Below, piece after piece: positions 1 through 58,739 of a stretch of DNA of 64,000 nt. The DNA comes from a virus. The stretch covers positions 1 to 64,000 of the IMG/VR virus record IMGVR_UViG_3300025652_000060; one strand, written 5' to 3'. A program made the translations under genes and the position numbers. A model generated the notes under the pieces. The model searched no databases and had not been told where the DNA came from. It worked only from the letters and a program-made list of their open reading frames with translations. Every line of letters starts with the position of its first letter. The stretch's first letter is position 1.

Positions 1-1
1 C

Positions 2-199
2 TCAAGCTTTACGGAATACTCTAAAGAAGCATTGGATTTTGACCGTGATACTTTTACGCTCACTCTTGATTCTATTATTCCTAACGGGATAAGATTAGGG
101 CGCGGGACTAAAGATAGTGTTAGGTTAATTGTTAAAGACGACCTAACCGGGCTTATAGATCACAAACTTTTCGTAATTGGTTTTAAACATATTGAATAG
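2..199 (+). CDS. Partial protein with a connector-like N-terminus
   Basis: The 5' end lies outside the window; 65 residues and a TAG stop are visible. The first 24 or so visible residues match residues about 16-39 of the connector proteins encoded next door and at 33254, with the shared core EALDFDRDTFTLTLDS. After that the sequence is unrelated to the connector and ends in a charged tail. The DNA at 29-74 is identical to 33326-33371 in the unit B connector. It may be a short protein formed by duplication of the connector N-terminus, or a recombination remnant. Function unknown. The stop is 8 bp before the next start. Confidence 0.6.
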   Translation, partial: SSFTEYSKEALDFDRDTFTLTLDSIIPNGIRLGRGTKDSVRLIVKDDLTGLIDHKLFVIGFKHIE

Positions 200-207
200 G
201 AAAAACT

Positions 208-13750: not shown

Positions 13751-14341
13751 TTAAATTTCAAAATGTGTTGTAACTTCTTTTGTAAATTGAATAAGCCCGT
13801 CATTCGATAAACTTCCAATGTCAGCGGTCGTCATTCCTTTACTAGCTAACCATGCCGCTAAAGCAATTGCGTCCACTGTATTCGCTTTAGAATATGCGGC
13901 CCTTGCTTTATTCAGGTTAATTGTTCTTAACTGCGCTGCAATTTCCGCGTTAGTTAATGCTTTAACGTTTCCCGTTGCACCGTTTCCGTCGTCGTCTAAA
14001 GTTCCACATATCCCGCATATTGTTTCAATAGAGTAACGGCGTAAGTAAGTAACGGCAGATCCAAAACCTTGCATATTGCTTTTGTCAGGGTTTATAGGAA
14101 TAAAAGAATCAATAGATCCTTGTCCGTTTTCTTCTAGTAGCCTAGTAGCTAATCCACTAATCCCGTTTTGTTCTTCAAAAGTTTGAATCATAATAAGACC
14201 ATTTTGTTCAAGCGCGGGCTTAACAGTATTTAACAGGCCTTCAAGATCAACGTACTTACTTTTAAAATGCGGGTTAGATGAATCTTTCTTAGGGTTCTTA
14301 ACAGTATTCTGAAAGGCAAAATACTTTTTGTAAATACTCAT
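13751..14341 (-). CDS. erf: ERF-family single-strand annealing protein
   Basis: A 196-residue protein with the ERF signature: N-terminal YKKYFAFQNTVKNPKKDSSNP followed by FKSKYVDLEGLLNTVKPALE, and later MQGFGSAVTYLRRYSIETI. ERF proteins anneal complementary single strands in phage recombination and genome circularisation. It overlaps the SSB gene upstream by 1 bp, so the two are translationally coupled. Unit B has an unrelated annealing protein at the same locus (46821). Confidence 0.85.
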   Translation of the reverse strand: MSIYKKYFAFQNTVKNPKKDSSNPHFKSKYVDLEGLLNTVKPALEQNGLIMIQTFEEQNGISGLATRLLEENGQGSIDSFIPINPDKSNMQGFGSAVTYLRRYSIETICGICGTLDDDGNGATGNVKALTNAEIAAQLRTINLNKARAAYSKANTVDAIALAAWLASKGMTTADIGSLSNDGLIQFTKEVTTHFEI

Positions 14342-16220: not shown

Positions 16221-16961
16221 ATGGATATATACATAATACCCGATAGACAAGTTAGGCCCGACGTAGAAACTCACTATAACAAAAGCATTGCCCGTCATAT
16301 CGCAGAGGTAAAGCCCGACATTATAATTGATATGGGTGATTTTTACGATATGAAATCTTTAAGTTATTACGATAAGGGCAAAAAGTCCCATGAGGTTTTC
16401 AACTTTATAGAGGACATTGAAATTGGTAACCAAGTAGACGATGAATTTTTCCAATGGTTAAAAGAATTCTGGCCTATATATAAATCGAAAACAAAACGCT
16501 ATAGGTTGGCGGGTAACCATGAGGATAGGATCCGCAAGGCTTTTGATTTTGGTGACTCGAATCTAAGGGAATTGATTAGACGTTTCCGCCCGGATCATAG
16601 CCGGTGGAATAAAGTAATTCCTTTTTTAAAAGTCTTAAAAATCGGCGGGGTTAATTTTTCTCATTACTTCCCTAACGACAATTCCGGAAAACCAATAGGA
16701 ACAGCAAAACAATTATTACAAAAAAGACACGCCTCATGTGTAGCCGGCCATCAACAAGGTTTTGACTACGCTGAACAATTAACTTTTGATAACAAAACAA
16801 TTCACGCCCTAATTGCCGGATCTTGTTACTTACATGACGAGGAATATAAAGGGCCTAATAACCACCACTTTAGGGGGACGGTTATATTAAGGAATGTTAA
16901 AGCGGGAATGTTCGATATTGAACGGCATTCTCTGACTCACTTAATGTCAAAATATAAGTGA
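16221..16961 (+). CDS. Calcineurin-like metallophosphoesterase
   Basis: A 246-residue protein with metallophosphoesterase motifs: IIPDRQV at residue 5, DMGDFYD, RLAGNHEDR, and late histidines in FSHYF and AGHQQGFD. The first motif has Asp without the usual D-x-H histidine, as in some phage members of the family. It is likely a metal-dependent phosphatase or nuclease; the substrate is unknown. The counterpart at 48684 has a canonical PDLH motif. The TGA overlaps the next GTG. Confidence 0.75.
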   Translation: MDIYIIPDRQVRPDVETHYNKSIARHIAEVKPDIIIDMGDFYDMKSLSYYDKGKKSHEVFNFIEDIEIGNQVDDEFFQWLKEFWPIYKSKTKRYRLAGNHEDRIRKAFDFGDSNLRELIRRFRPDHSRWNKVIPFLKVLKIGGVNFSHYFPNDNSGKPIGTAKQLLQKRHASCVAGHQQGFDYAEQLTFDNKTIHALIAGSCYLHDEEYKGPNNHHFRGTVILRNVKAGMFDIERHSLTHLMSKYK

Positions 16962-17146
16962 AATACAACAACAAGCCACAAAAGAAACAACAACCCCGTA
17001 AGGCTAGACGTAGGGAACAGCGCAGGGTATTCAAGAAGCGGTTTAAGGCGTTTTATGACGGCTTACCTGATTCGGATATGGACTATTACGAAAATGGTTT
17101 AGAACATACCCTAGAACCTGACTCCCAACCTAGTGGCGAGGAATAA
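16958..17146 (+). CDS. Small basic protein with acidic tail
   Basis: A 62-residue protein with a GTG start overlapping the phosphoesterase stop. The first half is strongly basic (RKARRREQRRVFKKRFKAF), the second acidic (PDSDMDYYENGLE). Such a split suggests nucleic-acid binding or a small regulator. DNA coding for the basic part is unusually conserved with unit B (49376). Function unknown. Confidence 0.65.
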   Translation: MKYNNKPQKKQQPRKARRREQRRVFKKRFKAFYDGLPDSDMDYYENGLEHTLEPDSQPSGEE

Positions 17147-17332
17147 AGACACTAATTGTAAGTAGACCTTCACGTTAGTAACTTGAAATAATATTTGTGC
17201 AGCATCAAGCTACGACTTCCAAGCCTTTCTTATAGCCCCCGAAACATGGACGTTGACGGGGTTATTCTCCCCGGAGTGGTATTTTTCGGGATTTTCTCAA
17301 ATTTTTCGGGATTATCTCCCAATGGGGAGAAT
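17147..17332. other. Conserved non-coding element between convergent genes
   Basis: A 186-bp space between a rightward gene and the leftward RusA operon, with no ORF. It holds TTGAAATAAT at about 17191, two copies of ATTTTTCGGGATT exactly 20 bp apart (17281 and 17301), and outer arms ATTCTCCCC and GGGGAGAAT flanking the repeats. The same arrangement appears in unit B at 49571-49824. Candidates are a replication origin, a protein-binding array or a small RNA. A simple terminator is less likely because the repeats are direct. Confidence 0.6.
17281..17314. repeat. Two direct repeats with 20-bp period
   Basis: ATTTTTCGGGATT at 17281-17293 and 17301-17313. The 20-bp period places both copies on about the same face of the helix. 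Unit B has the same two repeats with the same period at 49752 and 49772. Confidence 0.75.
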
Positions 17333-17560
17333 TTACTGGACGCCTAGATATTCAGGGTTAATTGCTCTTAACCATTCTTCATTGGTTTTTAATTGATCCT
17401 TTAGGGATATAAGCCTAGAGCGTTCATAACAAAACAAGCCCCGGTCAGAATCAATATAACCTAGCGCCTCAATACCTTTCACGGCCTCGACTACGCGGGA
17501 CTGACATAATTCCTCTAGGTATTCTTTAAATTCTTTAACGGGAATTAACTGCGTTTCCAT
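17333..17560 (-). CDS. Small protein downstream of RusA
   Basis: A 75-residue, mostly helical protein, with VKEFKEYLEELCQSRVVEA, DSDRGLFCYERSR and a C-terminal INPEYLG. It is conserved in unit B (49825; DRGLMPYERG, DPKYTRIQ). It follows RusA by 11 bp in a leftward operon. Function unknown; a partner of the resolvase is possible. Confidence 0.6.
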   Translation of the reverse strand: METQLIPVKEFKEYLEELCQSRVVEAVKGIEALGYIDSDRGLFCYERSRLISLKDQLKTNEEWLRAINPEYLGVQ

Positions 17561-17571
17561 AATGGGTTTTC

Positions 17572-17973
17572 CTAATTGAGTGAATAGAGTTTAATTTCTA
17601 TCCCTGATATTTCTCTATAATATTTAGACGCCGTTAGTGAAATAATTTGTGAGTCGTCAGCGTATGCACCGGGAAAGCCCGGGGAAGGGTTGAGCGCGTC
17701 TAGTAAGTTTTTAGCTAGGTTATCAACGTCACCACTTCTTTTGTTAATCGGGTATTTTGTCTTAATAGTTTTCGGGGGCTTTATAAAGAATACTATTTCA
17801 CAACGTAGGGCGCCCTCTAAAGGGTAGTCTAATTGTCCCCTTGCAATGGCCTGAACAGCTTTTTTGAACGCTACGTCTTTAGGATCCGAATGAGTGGACA
17901 CGTTGTTGCCCCGTCTAGCGAATCGCGGACGGTGTTTAGGTGTTGGATCAATATCTAGATATAAATAAACCAT
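17572..17973 (-). CDS. rusA: RusA-family Holliday junction resolvase
   Basis: A 133-residue protein with RusA features: PTPKHRPRFARRG near the N-terminus, FFIKPPKTIKTKYP, then GDVDNLAKNLLDALN with two catalytic aspartates and YADDSQIISLTASKYY with the third. RusA cuts four-way junctions and resolves recombination or replication intermediates before packaging. It is the first gene of a leftward two-gene operon. Confidence 0.9.
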   Translation of the reverse strand: MVYLYLDIDPTPKHRPRFARRGNNVSTHSDPKDVAFKKAVQAIARGQLDYPLEGALRCEIVFFIKPPKTIKTKYPINKRSGDVDNLAKNLLDALNPSPGFPGAYADDSQIISLTASKYYREISGIEIKLYSLN

Positions 17974-20245: not shown

Positions 20246-20935
20246 ATGAAATATTTTAAGCATTATTCAGACGTAAGAAATAGCGAATCTATAGCGAATC
20301 TTTTAGAGGAATTAGGCCTAGAAGGTTATGCGCGTTACTGGATTTTACTAGAACTTTTAGCAGAATTATATGACGGAACAAGCACGAAATTCAAAATTCA
20401 CAAACGAACTTTACGCACGGCGCTCCGGTTTAGATCCGGCTTGCAAGCGGATAGCTACGCCGTTGCAATCGGGTTGCAACCGGGTTACACGGTTGTTGTA
20501 ACCGAAACACATTATTTTATAGACGCAGCTATATTGTCGGAATTACAGAGTAGGGACTATAAAAAAGCGCGCTCTGACCGCGCAACAACCGCGCCTAAGA
20601 ATAAGAATAAGAATAAGAATAAGAGTATATGTAAAACACCGATTAAAAATGATTTTCAGGATCTTAATTTAAGCGACGCAGCAAAAGAATGGACTAAAAA
20701 AATAGGGCAACGCACAACAAAAAAGATGATTGATAAATATAAACCTGATTTTATTTTAGAAGAAATTTTAGAGGCGTACGAATGGACGCTAGACAACCCG
20801 GACAAGAAACGGCCTAACGTTGGGGGGTTTTTAAGTAATTGGTTTAAAAACTCTAAAAACCCTGACAAGCTTATTGTTGACCCGAATAGTCGGATAGACG
20901 CAGAGTTAATTGAAATGCTTACGGGGAAAAAATGA
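20246..20935 (+). CDS. Replication initiator-like protein
   Basis: A 229-residue protein. The N-terminal 100 residues (MKYFKHYSDVRNSESIANLL, YARYWILLELLAELYDG) resemble the helix-turn-helix domain of phage replication proteins related to the Lin1244/Lin1753 type. A flexible Asn-Lys repeat linker is at about residues 117-126, and the C-terminal domain (AYEWTLDNPDKK, VGGFLSNWFKNS) is of the type that loads helicase. It lies immediately before the helicase gene, overlapping it by 4 bp, so an initiator/loader role is likely. Confidence 0.7.
   Translation: MKYFKHYSDVRNSESIANLLEELGLEGYARYWILLELLAELYDGTSTKFKIHKRTLRTALRFRSGLQADSYAVAIGLQPGYTVVVTETHYFIDAAILSELQSRDYKKARSDRATTAPKNKNKNKNKSICKTPIKNDFQDLNLSDAAKEWTKKIGQRTTKKMIDKYKPDFILEEILEAYEWTLDNPDKKRPNVGGFLSNWFKNSKNPDKLIVDPNSRIDAELIEMLTGKK
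20597..20626 (+). repeat. Hexanucleotide tandem repeat in the initiator linker
   Basis: Four perfect AAGAAT units plus one AAGAGT unit, encoding Lys-Asn repeats between the two domains of the initiator. The unit length of 6 keeps the frame if copies are gained or lost. Unit B has a different hexamer (GAGAAA) in the same linker. Confidence 0.8.
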
Positions 20936-29708: not shown

Positions 29709-30148
29709 AACTTAATCCCTTCACTGGAAAGTTTGACCTAGTTTCTAAGGAAGTTGATAATTTTTCTTATAATTATATAGCTACCGGGATAACTGTTAAA
29801 GTCCCAACCTATCAACAGATGCTAGTTTATGAAAACATAACGGTTGACGGGATCCTGGAAATTGATGGCGATCTAGTAATACTAGACTTTAACGTTCCTA
29901 GTAGAATAGCAACAACAGAAGAAACAGAAAATATAGACATAAATTTATACGAGGTTATCAGTCAAACGGCGTCGGGTATTACGACGGGCTTGAGTAACCC
30001 CGTTACAGGCTCTACAATAACAATAACGAATAGAAGCGGTGGCGATAATACCTTAAATATAACAGTACAAGGTACGGCTTCACCAATCATAAAAGATTTA
30101 GAAAGTTTCTCTCTAATATATAACGGAACCGATTATGACATTACTTAG
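29699..30148 (+). CDS. Fibre or decoration protein
   Basis: A 149-residue beta-rich protein with the start pattern MGLKLNPFTGKFDLV and a VDGILEIDGDLVIL motif, both common in phage fibre proteins, followed by an IEV-type strand repeat (TITNRSGGDNTLNITVQG). It overlaps the next gene by 14 bp. It lies at the apparent seam between unit A and unit B styles. Confidence 0.5.
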   Translation: MGLKLNPFTGKFDLVSKEVDNFSYNYIATGITVKVPTYQQMLVYENITVDGILEIDGDLVILDFNVPSRIATTEETENIDINLYEVISQTASGITTGLSNPVTGSTITITNRSGGDNTLNITVQGTASPIIKDLESFSLIYNGTDYDIT

Positions 30149-31292
30149 AGATATGAAATCTATTGGCGAAACCTCTACAGGTAACACCACGACCACGCCT
30201 TTAAGTAGCGGCGCTACATATACAGGCACAGGCGAGCAAAATGGTTTACCTCAAGTTGGGGTTATGCTCAAGACCGATAACGATGGGACTTTGTATTTTG
30301 ATTTCTCTAACGATGGGACTAATTGGGATAGTACATTCCCAGTTTCAGGATTTAGAGTAGCTAGTGGAGTATCAGAATTTCATACGGCAATAAAGCTAGG
30401 TAGATATTTTAGAGTTAGATTAGTAAACGATACGGGCGCTCAAACTTATTTAAGACTAACTACTTATTACGGAAATGACTTTGTTCCCTCTAGTGCCCCT
30501 CTTAATCAAACACTCGGAAGGGATAGTGATGCTCAATCAAGCAGACCTTCAGATTTTACCGATGAAGTTTTAATTGGTAGACGTGGAGGGATAACTGCTT
30601 TTAATAAATTTGGTTATAGGTTAGATCTTGCAGCGGCAAGTGGTGAGCAAACTATATGGGCAACTACAGGGAACTTTGTTCCAATGACCACCGCCTCAAC
30701 TTTTACAATTACATATACAAACACGGCAGATGGTTCAACTTCAAATGGTGCATTAACTTTATATTTTCAATATTTAGACAGTGATGGGCTTGCTCAAGTA
30801 GCGGTTCATACGCTTGGATCTACAGGAAGTGATGTTACAGCATTTAGCGGTTTAGGCATTAATAGGGTAGCTGTTTCAACTAGTGGAAGTACTCAGACGA
30901 ATGGCGGCGATATACTTATCACAGAAACTACAGGCGGCACTACTCAGGCGGCTATATCTTCCGGCGAAGGGGTAACTCAACAAGCTATCTTCCATACAGA
31001 CGCTAATAGTGATGGGGTAGCAAAATATCTTTGGTTTAATGTTAATAAGATTTCAGGCGGTGGATCTCCTAGAGTAACAATCAAGGGCTATGTATTTAAT
31101 AGAGAGTTTGAAACACGCTATGAAGTATTCAGAGCAACAATTGATACAGGTGTGGAGAATACAATGGAAATCGTGCCGCCAATATCTTTCAAGTTATCAC
31201 CTACAGATATTTTATATTTCGTTGGAGATACTGACACCAACAATACTATTATCTCCATGAGATTTAGTTTATTTGAGTATAAAAGGACATAG
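30135..31292 (+). CDS. Fibre-like virion protein
   Basis: A 385-residue protein. The first 120 residues (LPQVGVMLKTDNDGTLYFDF, then IKLGRYFRVRLVNDTGAQTY) resemble a beta domain common in phage structural proteins, and the remainder is a Thr/Ser/Gly-rich beta region. Codon use favours GAT over GAC, unlike most of unit A, and matches unit B. Probably part of a fibre or head decoration. Confidence 0.55.
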   Translation: MTLLRDMKSIGETSTGNTTTTPLSSGATYTGTGEQNGLPQVGVMLKTDNDGTLYFDFSNDGTNWDSTFPVSGFRVASGVSEFHTAIKLGRYFRVRLVNDTGAQTYLRLTTYYGNDFVPSSAPLNQTLGRDSDAQSSRPSDFTDEVLIGRRGGITAFNKFGYRLDLAAASGEQTIWATTGNFVPMTTASTFTITYTNTADGSTSNGALTLYFQYLDSDGLAQVAVHTLGSTGSDVTAFSGLGINRVAVSTSGSTQTNGGDILITETTGGTTQAAISSGEGVTQQAIFHTDANSDGVAKYLWFNVNKISGGGSPRVTIKGYVFNREFETRYEVFRATIDTGVENTMEIVPPISFKLSPTDILYFVGDTDTNNTIISMRFSLFEYKRT

Positions 31293-33120: not shown

Positions 33121-33273
33121 ATGGACGAGAAAACAAAAAACGCATTGGAAATGATTAAGCAATTATGCGCAGCCTTTATAGGGAACCTTGAGCAACACGA
33201 AAACATTCAAGGCGCTATTAATTTAATAGAAAAAGAATTAAGCGGGAGCGATAATGTTAAAGATAAAAAATAA
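33121..33273 (+). CDS. 50-residue helical protein before the unit B connector
   Basis: A frame from ATG with SD AAAGGA, encoding a helical protein with LEMIKQLCAAFIGNLEQHEN. The C-terminus is overprinted by the next gene (20-bp overlap). No family recognised. In unit A the gene before the connector is a different one (end at 199). Confidence 0.5.
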   Translation: MDEKTKNALEMIKQLCAAFIGNLEQHENIQGAINLIEKELSGSDNVKDKK

Positions 33274-46820: not shown

Positions 46821-47405
46821 CTACCCTATAATTTCATTAAAAGATTTTAATACTTTCGCTAAATTCGCTGCGCTCATACTGGCAAGATCGTTAGGGTTTT
46901 TGCATCCCGCTTCTTTTAAAGCGTGAATTAACTCATCCTTAACCTCACCGTCAGGCGCATCGCCTACAATAGATCTAATCTCATTCCTAGCTTCACCTAG
47001 AGAATCATCTTCCTCTGGTAGATCCTCTCCCGCATAGATATATAATCCAAGCCCATGCCGAGCAATCGCTTTAGTTAAAGCCCTTTGAATAGAATTATTA
47101 ACATCGGTTGAATTAATTTTAGCAATCTGGATTGATTGATTCTTAAAGTCCATAATCGGTAAATATTCAATATGCTCTAATTCCTCTATAGTTACTCCGA
47201 CCTTTACCCATGCGGTTCTGCCATCGTCCCAATAAATTCGCCCATTATCTTGTTCATAAACAATTGAGGTCGCTAATGGGTATTTCTTTTTAAGCTCACT
47301 CCAAGCCCATGCCCATGATAAATAAGAAAGTTTTCCTTTCTTTTTAATTCGCTCTCCAACATCAATAGAATTTAAGGCAGCGAATACCTTAGTTGGCGCT
47401 ACCAT
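46821..47405 (-). CDS. DUF1071/SSAP-type single-strand annealing protein
   Basis: A 194-residue protein with the typical start pattern of this group: [20 protein letters not shown] followed by [16 protein letters not shown], and a mid region [20 protein letters not shown]. This family includes phage annealing recombinases. It replaces the ERF protein of unit A at the same locus and strand, next to SSB, overlapping it by 7 bp. Confidence 0.85.
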
Positions 47406-48683: not shown

Positions 48684-49397
48684 ATGGCTAAAAAAAATAA
48701 ATGTATCCTTGTAATCCCAGACCTTCACATTCCATTTCACCACCAAGATAGTTTTGTTTTCTTGAAATCGGTTCGAGATAAATATTCTCCAGACCGTGTT
48801 GTAAATTTGGGCGATGAGATTGATAACCACTCAATTAGTTTTCACGATTCGGATCCTGATTTAATGTTTTCACCTTCGCAAGAATTAGAAAAAGCAATCT
48901 GGTATCTAAAAGACCTTTACGAAATCTTTCCTAAAATGGATTTGGTAGAATCTAATCATGGGAGCCTTCATTATCGCAGGGGGAAAGCCCACGGCATCCC
49001 GAGACATTTTTTCAAATCTTATAAAGAATTACTAGAAGCGCCAAAGGGATGGAACTGGACTTTTGATCTAGTTGTTACTGCAAGTGATGGGAGCGATATT
49101 TATTTTCATCATGGGCTTTCTAAGAACGCTTTAAAAACTTCGCAGAACAAATCAATGAATCACTGCTGTGGTCACTTTCATAGTGAATTCGGGGTTAAGT
49201 TTTGGGCTAATTCCAGACAATTGTTTTGGGCAATGAATACTGGCTGCCTAATAGACGATACAGCTCTCGCTTTCGAATATGGAAAAAACAATCTCGCTAA
49301 ATCAATTCTGGGATGCGGAATAATCATCAACGGAATACCCAAACTAATTCCAATGGTACTAAAAAAGAATGGACGATGGGACGGAAAACTACTGTAA
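48684..49397 (+). CDS. Calcineurin-like metallophosphoesterase (unit B)
   Basis: A 237-residue protein with the canonical motif set: VIPDLHIPFHH, VNLGDEIDNH, VESNHGS, IYFHHG and CCGHFHS. It shares position but limited sequence with 16221, so either deep divergence or replacement by another subgroup occurred. Substrate unknown. Confidence 0.8.
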   Translation: MAKKNKCILVIPDLHIPFHHQDSFVFLKSVRDKYSPDRVVNLGDEIDNHSISFHDSDPDLMFSPSQELEKAIWYLKDLYEIFPKMDLVESNHGSLHYRRGKAHGIPRHFFKSYKELLEAPKGWNWTFDLVVTASDGSDIYFHHGLSKNALKTSQNKSMNHCCGHFHSEFGVKFWANSRQLFWAMNTGCLIDDTALAFEYGKNNLAKSILGCGIIINGIPKLIPMVLKKNGRWDGKLL

Positions 49398-49570
49398 GGC
49401 AACCACCTCGAAAAGTTCCACGTAAAGCAAGGCGCAGAGAACAGCGCAGGGTATTTAAGAAGCGGTTTAAAGTCTTTTTTGACGGTGAGCCTGATTCGGA
49501 TATGGATTATTACGAAAACGGCTTAGAATGGATGCTAGAACCCTCTGGAGATTTACCGCAGGATGATTGA
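49376..49570 (+). CDS. Small basic protein with acidic tail (unit B)
   Basis: 64 residues from ATG 49376, overlapping the phosphoesterase by 22 bp. RKARRREQRRVFKKRFKVFF and PDSDMDYYENGLE match 16958 almost exactly. The start is chosen by comparison with unit A; a further upstream start would overprint the enzyme gene for 63 more bases. Confidence 0.65.
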   Translation: MGRKTTVRQPPRKVPRKARRREQRRVFKKRFKVFFDGEPDSDMDYYENGLEWMLEPSGDLPQDD

Positions 49571-49824
49571 TAAAGTTAGTAGGCATTATTTACCTGTATT
49601 GAAATAATAAATTGTGTTCATTCATCGACACTCCTTGAATAATCCGTGGAGCATGGAAGCGAAGCGGGTTTCTCTACTATTGCGACCTAGTATAATAGTG
49701 GTCATTTGACCATTTTAAATTCCGTTCTAGTATAATTCTCCCTACAGTGTGATTTTTCGGGATTTCATCAATTTTTTCGGGATTTTCTAACTATAGAGAG
49801 AATTACTATATCCCTTTAGGGAGA
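49571..49824. other. Conserved non-coding element between convergent genes (unit B)
   Basis: A 254-bp space with no ORF. It holds TTGAAATAAT at about 49599, the CTAGTATAAT box twice (49687, 49727; 40 bp apart), a TGGTCA/TGACCA palindrome (49699-49712), two TTTTTCGGGATTT repeats 20 bp apart, arms ATTCTCCCT and AGAGAGAAT flanking them, and a final TCCC/GGGA hairpin. It is colinear with 17147-17332. Confidence 0.6.
49752..49785. repeat. Two direct repeats with 20-bp period (unit B)
   Basis: TTTTTCGGGATTT at 49753-49765 and 49773-49785. The core is identical to the unit A pair and the period is the same, while surrounding sequence has changed. Confidence 0.75.
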
Positions 49825-50052
49825 TTATTGAATTCTGGTATATTTAGGATCCGCAACTAATATCCAAGCCTCGTTAGTTTCTAAAGTATTCTCATGGGCG
49901 GTTTTCATCCCTCGCTCATAAGGCATCAAACCTCTGTCTCTTTCTATAAAATCAAAAGCCTCAATCTTTTTAAGAGAGCCTACTATCTGTTCCATGCAGC
50001 ATTCATATAATTCTTTTTTGAAATCATAAGCGCATACTAATTCTTTTTCCAT
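49825..50052 (-). CDS. Small protein downstream of RusA (unit B)
   Basis: 75 residues, a homologue of 17333 with the same length and with KELYECCMEQIVGSLKKIEA and DRGLMPYERGMK. Encoded 7 bp after RusA in the leftward operon. Confidence 0.6.
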   Translation of the reverse strand: MEKELVCAYDFKKELYECCMEQIVGSLKKIEAFDFIERDRGLMPYERGMKTAHENTLETNEAWILVADPKYTRIQ

Positions 50053-50059
50053 GGTAATC

Positions 50060-50443
50060 CTAATTTATTGGGTAGATCCTAACGATTATGCAAGCGTCCT
50101 CAGCATAATATTTGCAGGCGGTAAGTTTTATAATTTGAGAATCGTTTTTAAAAACAACGCCTTCCATGCCATCGAAAACCGATTTAGTTAGATTATCAAT
50201 ATCTGGTTTAACGTGAGGGTATTTTCTCTGAACTGATTTAGGTGGCTTGATAAAAAAATCTATCTCAACTTTCAATGCTCCAGTTAAAGGCTCATCGGAA
50301 TATTGGTTTTTAGAAAGCTTCCCTATTTCAGTTTCATAGGCTTTGGTTTTCGCATCTGTATAACAGATAACGTTTTTCCCCCGCCTTGCGAATCTTGGTC
50401 TGCCTTTGGGGAATGGTGGTAAATCAAAATATAGATTAATCAT
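50060..50443 (-). CDS. rusA: RusA-family Holliday junction resolvase (unit B)
   Basis: A 127-residue protein: PPFPKGRPRFARRGKNV, FFIKPPKSVQRKYPHVKP, DIDNLTKSVFDGME with two catalytic Asp, and FKNDSQIIKLTACKYY with the third. Six residues shorter than the unit A enzyme, mostly in the loop between the two Asp motifs. Confidence 0.9.
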   Translation of the reverse strand: MINLYFDLPPFPKGRPRFARRGKNVICYTDAKTKAYETEIGKLSKNQYSDEPLTGALKVEIDFFIKPPKSVQRKYPHVKPDIDNLTKSVFDGMEGVVFKNDSQIIKLTACKYYAEDACIIVRIYPIN

Positions 50444-57505: not shown

Positions 57506-58120
57506 ATGAAAAACCAGTGTGAACGCATTGTTGAAACAGAACTGCATAAATTAGTACCGCATCCAAAAAACCCCAATACGCATTCTGAGGAACAGATTGA
57601 GCGCCTAGCTAAATTAATAAGCTATCAAGGCTTTCGTTCTCCCATAGTCGTATCAAATCAATCGGGCTTTATAATCGTAGGGCACGGAAGGTTAGAAGCT
57701 GCAAAAGGCTTAGGGCTTGAAACGGTTCCAGTAATATACCAAGATTTTAAGGATGAGGCGCAAGAATACGCCCACATGACCGCTGACAATGCCATTGGCT
57801 CATGGTCTAAATTAGATTTCTCTCAGATTAATACGGATATTTTAGAACTCGGTCCTGAATTGAATATCGAACTTTTAGGTATAAAAGAATTCACAGTGGA
57901 TCCAAGCGAGATAGAACTGCCAGATTTAAAGGCAGGCGATAACGGACCGTGTCAGAAAGTAACTTTTACCTTATCAGATGAACAGGTTGATAAGGTGAAG
58001 GAAGCAATGGAAAAGGCTAAATCTTTCGGACCGATACATGATGACCTAAATGAAAATTCAAACGGTAATGCCCTTGCGAGAGTGGCTGAATTATTTATAA
58101 GTAGCTGCGATGTCAGCTAA
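57506..58120 (+). CDS. ParB-like nuclease-domain protein (unit B only)
   Basis: A 204-residue protein. Residues about 8-110 are a ParB N-terminal (ParB/Srx) domain: LHKLVPHPKNPNTHSEEQIE, IVVSNQSGFIIVGHGRLEAA and MTADNAIGSWSKLDF. Such domains in phages often accompany DNA methylases or other modification enzymes. The C-terminal 70 residues are helical. It overlaps the Mom-like gene by 11 bp, so the two form one unit. Confidence 0.8.
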   Translation: MKNQCERIVETELHKLVPHPKNPNTHSEEQIERLAKLISYQGFRSPIVVSNQSGFIIVGHGRLEAAKGLGLETVPVIYQDFKDEAQEYAHMTADNAIGSWSKLDFSQINTDILELGPELNIELLGIKEFTVDPSEIELPDLKAGDNGPCQKVTFTLSDEQVDKVKEAMEKAKSFGPIHDDLNENSNGNALARVAELFISSCDVS

Positions 58121-58739
58121 AAGCATTGAAATTAAACCGATTAGCTCCAAGGATGCAAATGCGATCTGTAAAAGATTTCATTATTCTGGGAAAGTTGCTG
58201 CGATTTCACAGCTCCATTTTGGCGTTTTTTATAAGGGTCAATGTGAAGGGGTAATGCAATACGGACCGCCAATTGATAGGCGCAAGTTATTACCATTAGT
58301 TAAGGGCACAAAGTTTAATGATTTTCTTGAGCTTAATCGAATGGCTTTCTCTGATAATCTCCCTAGGTTTTCAGAATCTAGAGCCATTGGAATCGCTCAT
58401 CGAATTATTAAAAAGAATTATCCACATATTAAGTGGATCATATCGTTTGCAGACGCAACGCAATGCGGTGATGGGACAATCTATCGAGCCTCTAATTTTC
58501 TGCTAACTGCTATTAGAAAAAACTCTACTATCTACAAATTGAAGGATGGTGAGGTAGCCGCCAAGCACGGTACGTCTAAGAAGGATTTTAATGGGGCTGA
58601 GAGGCTTGTTGGGTATCAGTTGCGATACATTTACTTCTTAGATCCAAAAATGCGGGAGAACCTAACTGTGCCAGTGATTCCGTATAGTGATATTGAAAGA
58701 TTAGGCGCATCAATGTATAAAGGAAAAGTGCGTGGGTAG
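58110..58739 (+). CDS. Mom-like DNA adenine modification protein (unit B only)
   Basis: A 209-residue protein resembling phage Mu Mom relatives, GNAT-like enzymes that add a carbamoylmethyl-type group to adenine and protect DNA from restriction. Visible: FHYSGKVAAISQLHFGVFYK, LELNRMAFSDNLPRFSESRA, IGIAHRIIKKNYPHIKWIIS and FADATQCGDGTIYRASNFLL, all typical of that group. It is located just upstream of terminase. No equivalent is found in unit A. Confidence 0.75.
   Translation: MSAKSIEIKPISSKDANAICKRFHYSGKVAAISQLHFGVFYKGQCEGVMQYGPPIDRRKLLPLVKGTKFNDFLELNRMAFSDNLPRFSESRAIGIAHRIIKKNYPHIKWIISFADATQCGDGTIYRASNFLLTAIRKNSTIYKLKDGEVAAKHGTSKKDFNGAERLVGYQLRYIYFLDPKMRENLTVPVIPYSDIERLGASMYKGKVRG

Follow-up and report, generated by a model that had tools for sequence, protein, structure and literature searches.

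Genes and features of the two convergent junctions

A conserved 70-bp non-coding element occurs twice, as copies A and B, in the window, which is the whole 64-kb stretch of DNA analysed and forms part of a 65,335-bp virus record. Each copy is located at the right end of a non-coding stretch between convergent genes, the rightward small gene ending at 17146 (A) or 49570 (B) and the leftward gene at 17333 (A) or 49825 (B), and the meeting of rightward and leftward transcription at this spot had been recognized in the preliminary description. The rightward transcript has the gene order amidase-phosphoesterase-small. The conserved unit comprises 69-70 bp and four boxes: an arm (ATTCTCC), a repeat, a second repeat and an inverted arm.

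16958..17146, plus strand: arginine-rich small protein of 62 aa, copy A; candidate partner of the element, with 18 consecutive residues identical in A and B
17183..17192, plus strand: TTGAAATAAT, copy A; fits an extended -10 (TGnAATAAT) with a weak -35, TAGACC, and a spacer of 18, as a consensus match only
17264..17333, no strand assigned: conserved 70-bp element, copy A; ungapped 56/70 match to copy B, with a score far beyond shuffles
17264..17272, plus strand: left arm ATTCTCCCC of the inverted repeat, copy A
17282..17293, plus strand: repeat 1, TTTTTCGGGATT (AATCCCGAAAAA on the minus strand), copy A
17302..17313, plus strand: repeat 2, TTTTTCGGGATT, 20 bp past repeat 1, copy A
17324..17332, plus strand: right arm GGGGAGAAT, copy A; adjoins the stop codon of the leftward gene (17333)
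17333..17560, minus strand: 75-aa protein with no assigned function, copy A; last gene of the leftward pair, its 3' end meeting the element; 39% identity between A and B
17572..17973, minus strand: RusA-like Holliday junction resolvase, copy A (Pfam RusA, 3.5e-22); 48% identity between A and B
49313..49570, plus strand: arginine-rich small protein, copy B; an 85-aa ORF whose true start is probably internal
49599..49608, plus strand: TTGAAATAAT, copy B; extended -10-like, with a weak -35, TAGGCA, and a spacer of 17
49735..49804, no strand assigned: conserved 70-bp element, copy B; same location relative to the genes as copy A
49753..49764, plus strand: repeat 1, TTTTTCGGGATT, copy B
49773..49784, plus strand: repeat 2, TTTTTCGGGATT, copy B
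49825..50443, minus strand: leftward 75-aa gene and RusA gene, copy B

Several details noted earlier were borne out, including two exact repeats with a period of exactly 20 bp in both copies, the framing of the repeats by a sequence and its near complement (the arms of copy B are ATTCTCCCT and AGAGAGAAT) and the presence of TTGAAATAAT in both units, these being its sole two copies in the window. The extent of the element was revised, as the whole interval 17147-17332 (186 bp) had been proposed and only 17264-17333 is conserved. An absence of ORFs had also been claimed; ORFs of up to 50 aa do cross the region in A, but the region is non-coding since the ORF of B stops ahead of the repeats and a 20-bp period is not a multiple of three. 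The short ORFs were rejected as genes as they showed no conservation between A and B. The repeat TTTTTCGGGATT has four exact copies in the window, all within the two elements, and no further copy with one mismatch. No other 9-bp perfect inverted repeat with the spacing of the arms occurs in the 64 kb, and among 63,931 frames of 69 nt the frame of the element was the only one with at least nine consecutive outer Watson-Crick pairs.

The two units are two related phages, A and B, rather than one duplicated genome, and were apparently joined during assembly at a 127-bp repeat. This repeat is perfect, with one copy at 30077-30203 and the other at 65209-65335, and the last base of the second copy is also the last base of the record. 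Phage A is found elsewhere as a separate 31.7-kb contig in another metagenome, and the same two sequences, A and B, are present in further contigs. These findings are most simply read as the joining, during assembly, of a partial phage A (1-30203) to a phage B mapping as a circle of 35.1 kb (30204-65335), so that two independent phages support the element. The A contig has its own version of the 31.3-33.4 kb region, only 86-90% identical to that of the window. Window positions 1-207 hold a 5' fragment that strongly resembles the first part of the gene at 33254, and then sequence leading into the gene at 208, and in contig 3300007276_000176 the region matching 1-207 comes after the 86-90% version of 31.3-33.4 kb.

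Other differences between the phages were observed away from the junctions. The annealing protein at the same position differs in family, being ERF in A (13751-14341) and Sak in B (46821-47405). Positions 57506-58739 in B encode a ParB-like/methyltransferase-type protein beside a Mom-like DNA modification protein, which was absent among the A proteins scanned. The B RusA gene is present as two overlapping pieces in contig 3300007276_000510 (locus L034, 904-1283), suggesting a frameshift relative to the window.

Conservation of the element and of the adjacent small gene

Copies A and B align without gaps at 56 of 70 positions (80% identity). Local alignment of the two intergenic regions scored 68, whereas none of 2000 dinucleotide shuffles scored above 31. 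At fourfold-degenerate sites the identity between A and B is 17-54% depending on the gene, with synonymous sites near saturation, and the identity within the block therefore indicates strong constraint (binomial probability about 1e-14 against 0.35). The outermost 6 bp of each arm and all 12 bp of each repeat are invariant, so that sequence has been preserved as well as pairing. To the left of the block, conservation rises above chance only at and around TTGAAATAAT (p 0.0045), and the other flanking non-coding DNA barely aligns. The element is the sole non-coding match between A and B in this stretch, and in a whole-record comparison only the small gene and the block were detectable at the nucleotide level in this part of the genome, with RusA going undetected and the surrounding early genes either replaced or retaining 28-48% protein identity. 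The preliminary description had noted that neighbouring sequence diverged while period and repeats were kept; this observation is confirmed and is stronger than first put. The block is clearly under selection and a functional non-coding element is strongly supported.

At the protein level nine early-region pairs were compared between the two phages. The small protein reached 35/40 identity in its best 40-column window with an identical run of 18 residues, while the other eight reached at most 24/40 and a run of 8, which makes it far better conserved than any other early-region protein in the comparison. Its identical stretch is arginine-rich and was modelled with a helix at residues 14-34 at moderate confidence (mean pLDDT 68). 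No convincing match to the small protein was found among families, structures or phage records, it showed no homology to any known family, and the 75-aa protein had no match among phages. At synonymous sites, too, the small gene lies slightly above background (25/38), so local exchange between the lineages could contribute.

No third lineage with the element was found in the viral and genome collections searched. A terminase alignment covered 50 loci, and the element was present only in L015 and L034, which are the known A and B copies; the relatives recovered by terminase lacked the neighbouring genes, and a repeat-plus-arm scan of them gave unrelated sites only. Searches with the small protein, the 75-aa protein, RusA and an 847-aa tail protein recovered contigs of A and B together with a single partial tail-protein match. 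The hits of DNA-pattern scans in the viral and genome collections were otherwise tandem arrays, repeats in coding sequence or chance matches, nothing meaningful came from comparing the region with phages and plasmids by similarity, and literature searches for the repeat sequence gave unrelated sequences only. Two other repeats were seen along the way. In a distant terminase relative (L037, 2860-2893) an intergenic TAAGTGAATACT with a 21-bp period lies just upstream of the gene preceding the terminase, and virus contig 3300025563_000008 (L005, 44-118) carries at least four tandem TTTTTCGGGATTTAAACTCCC units with a 21-bp period in an unrelated context.

Alternative functions of the element

A structured regulatory RNA is possible though doubtful, either as a hairpin in the 3' untranslated region of the leftward rusA message or as a short antisense rightward RNA from TTGAAATAAT, acting by pairing or bound by a host factor. 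The arms pair in RNA of both strands, with fold z-scores against shuffles of -2.4 (A) and -3.7 (B) on the minus strand and -1.4 (A) and -2.5 (B) on the plus strand, and the arm of A comes directly after the stop codon at 17333. The stem of B has 17 pairs on the minus strand, its departures all being G-U, while A pairs slightly better as plus-strand RNA (one pair gained), so the strand preference differs between the phages. The extended -10 fit of TTGAAATAAT in both phages, a rare match in the window in combination with a weak -35, makes TTGAAATAAT a possible rightward promoter whose transcript would cross the element, and no conserved ORF lies behind it. Against an RNA, no Rfam covariance model matched at the gathering threshold in the 64 kb, there is no clear terminator past the element for a plus-strand RNA and the sequence of the arms is kept beyond what pairing needs. 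The arm stem has one compensatory and one G-U-preserving change between A and B, but with two sequences this covariation is near chance, about half of shuffles reaching the same level.

An origin of replication, at which a factor bound to the repeats would melt the DNA and load the phage helicase, was judged unlikely. The closest known parallel is oriR/oriL of the Bacillus phage SPP1, where oriR is an intergenic origin with direct repeats (PMC6316719). Direct repeats in a long intergenic region and neighbouring recombination genes (resolvase, annealing protein, SSB) are common to both systems, and the repeats of A and B are about two helical turns apart and close to replication genes. In SPP1 there is also an AT-rich unwinding region, and the origin boxes recur inside the initiator gene. 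The initiator genes of A and B carry no boxes, and none was present, exactly or with one mismatch, anywhere in the window outside the elements. The AT content is 0.51-0.63 around copy A and up to 0.70 around copy B, compared with about 0.61 for the genome, and no AT-rich flank clearly stands out in A.

Boxes for the initiators encoded at 20246 and 52363 had been suggested. These two proteins show no detectable similarity and fall into non-overlapping PHROG families, again in contrast to SPP1, while all four boxes are identical in A and B; boxes bound by those initiators should have diverged too, and their identity speaks against an initiator-bound origin. A GC-skew check had also been proposed, and the raw third-position minimum of the rightward genes was indeed close to the element in both phages (16868 in A and 49351 in B, permutation p 0.002 and 0.021). 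After amino-acid normalisation the signal vanished (p 0.32 and 0.31, with the minima at other positions), no consistent tail/head skew difference emerged from fourfold sites alone, and an origin call from GC skew was rejected. Iteron origins such as that of PLE, whose initiator binds its own iteron (PMC7145576), likewise have direct repeats in a non-coding region, but the element has two repeats only and no RepA_N initiator was identified for A or B. A host factor, or a factor that has gone unrecognised, could still drive an origin at this site.

A bidirectional terminator or insulator between the convergent operons, acting without a dedicated phage factor, would suit the position at the junction and the arms, which are symmetrical for both directions, but appears quite improbable. 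Just upstream in copy A there is a hairpin rich in C/G whose tail is T-rich, and A has one weak terminator-like site at 17270-17290, but such sites occur in the region at the number expected by chance. The arm stem fails the intrinsic-terminator pattern of a G+C-rich hairpin followed by a U-tract, the one weak match in A being unrelated, as no U-tract follows it on either strand in A or B and its loop is about 40-50 nt; nor does termination need two exact 12-mers.

A site for recombination, partition or packaging is very improbable despite the mixture of direct and inverted repeats, since no integrase was found among the best 25 families of the 38 early-region proteins, a ParB-like protein, relevant to the earlier suggestion of partition, is present in B but was not found among the A proteins scanned, and packaging is unlikely by position with the terminase genes 6-9 kb away.

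A proposed cis-acting recognition site and its candidate partner

The reading tentatively favoured is that of a sequence-specific cis-acting recognition element, as DNA or RNA, at the point where convergent transcripts meet, with the adjacent 62-aa protein as the likeliest factor. Four boxes in fixed register over 69 bp (arm, direct repeat, direct repeat, inverted arm) would form a phage-encoded cis-acting site. A sequence-specific factor may bind both identical repeats, whether these are read as DNA, along a single face of the duplex, or as RNA, inside a hairpin loop that the arms close. Binding would control the meeting point of the rightward amidase-phosphoesterase-small and leftward rusA transcripts. 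The arginine-rich protein is the likeliest factor because it and the element are neighbours and alone stand out as exceptionally conserved in an early region that has otherwise strongly diverged, a co-conservation seen in a single comparison of two independent sequences. A partner of identical boxes is expected to be conserved too, and on this circumstantial evidence the adjacent protein is the best candidate partner, its composition making it a candidate RNA- or DNA-binding protein. The main alternative is that the partner is a host factor.

Lambda N is a small arginine-rich helical protein and its nut site includes a boxB hairpin with a GAAAA-type loop. The resemblance is of kind only, consisting of a small arginine-rich protein encoded beside a short nucleic-acid element, and the composition and modelled helix of the protein here are compatible with an arginine-rich RNA-binding peptide. 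Unlike nut, the element has no boxB hairpin, as CCCGAAAAA is without a complementary 3' arm (no GGG follows) and no such hairpin appears in the predicted folds, and the small gene is on the opposite strand from the leftward transcript.

It would be a less probable extension of the recognition-site reading that protein and element together make up a dedicated phage system with two parts, from a family not yet described, in which the protein on the paired repeats within the arm-bounded site sets the outcome where convergent transcription, or a replication fork by the resolvase gene, meets.

The case shows that chimeric assembly can mimic a duplicated genome, and the element is a counter-example to reading every repeat pair by replication genes as an initiator-bound origin. 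Together with the small protein it forms a small testable protein-site pair, and such identity in a 70-bp non-coding block amid diverged or replaced genes marks a function common to both phages.
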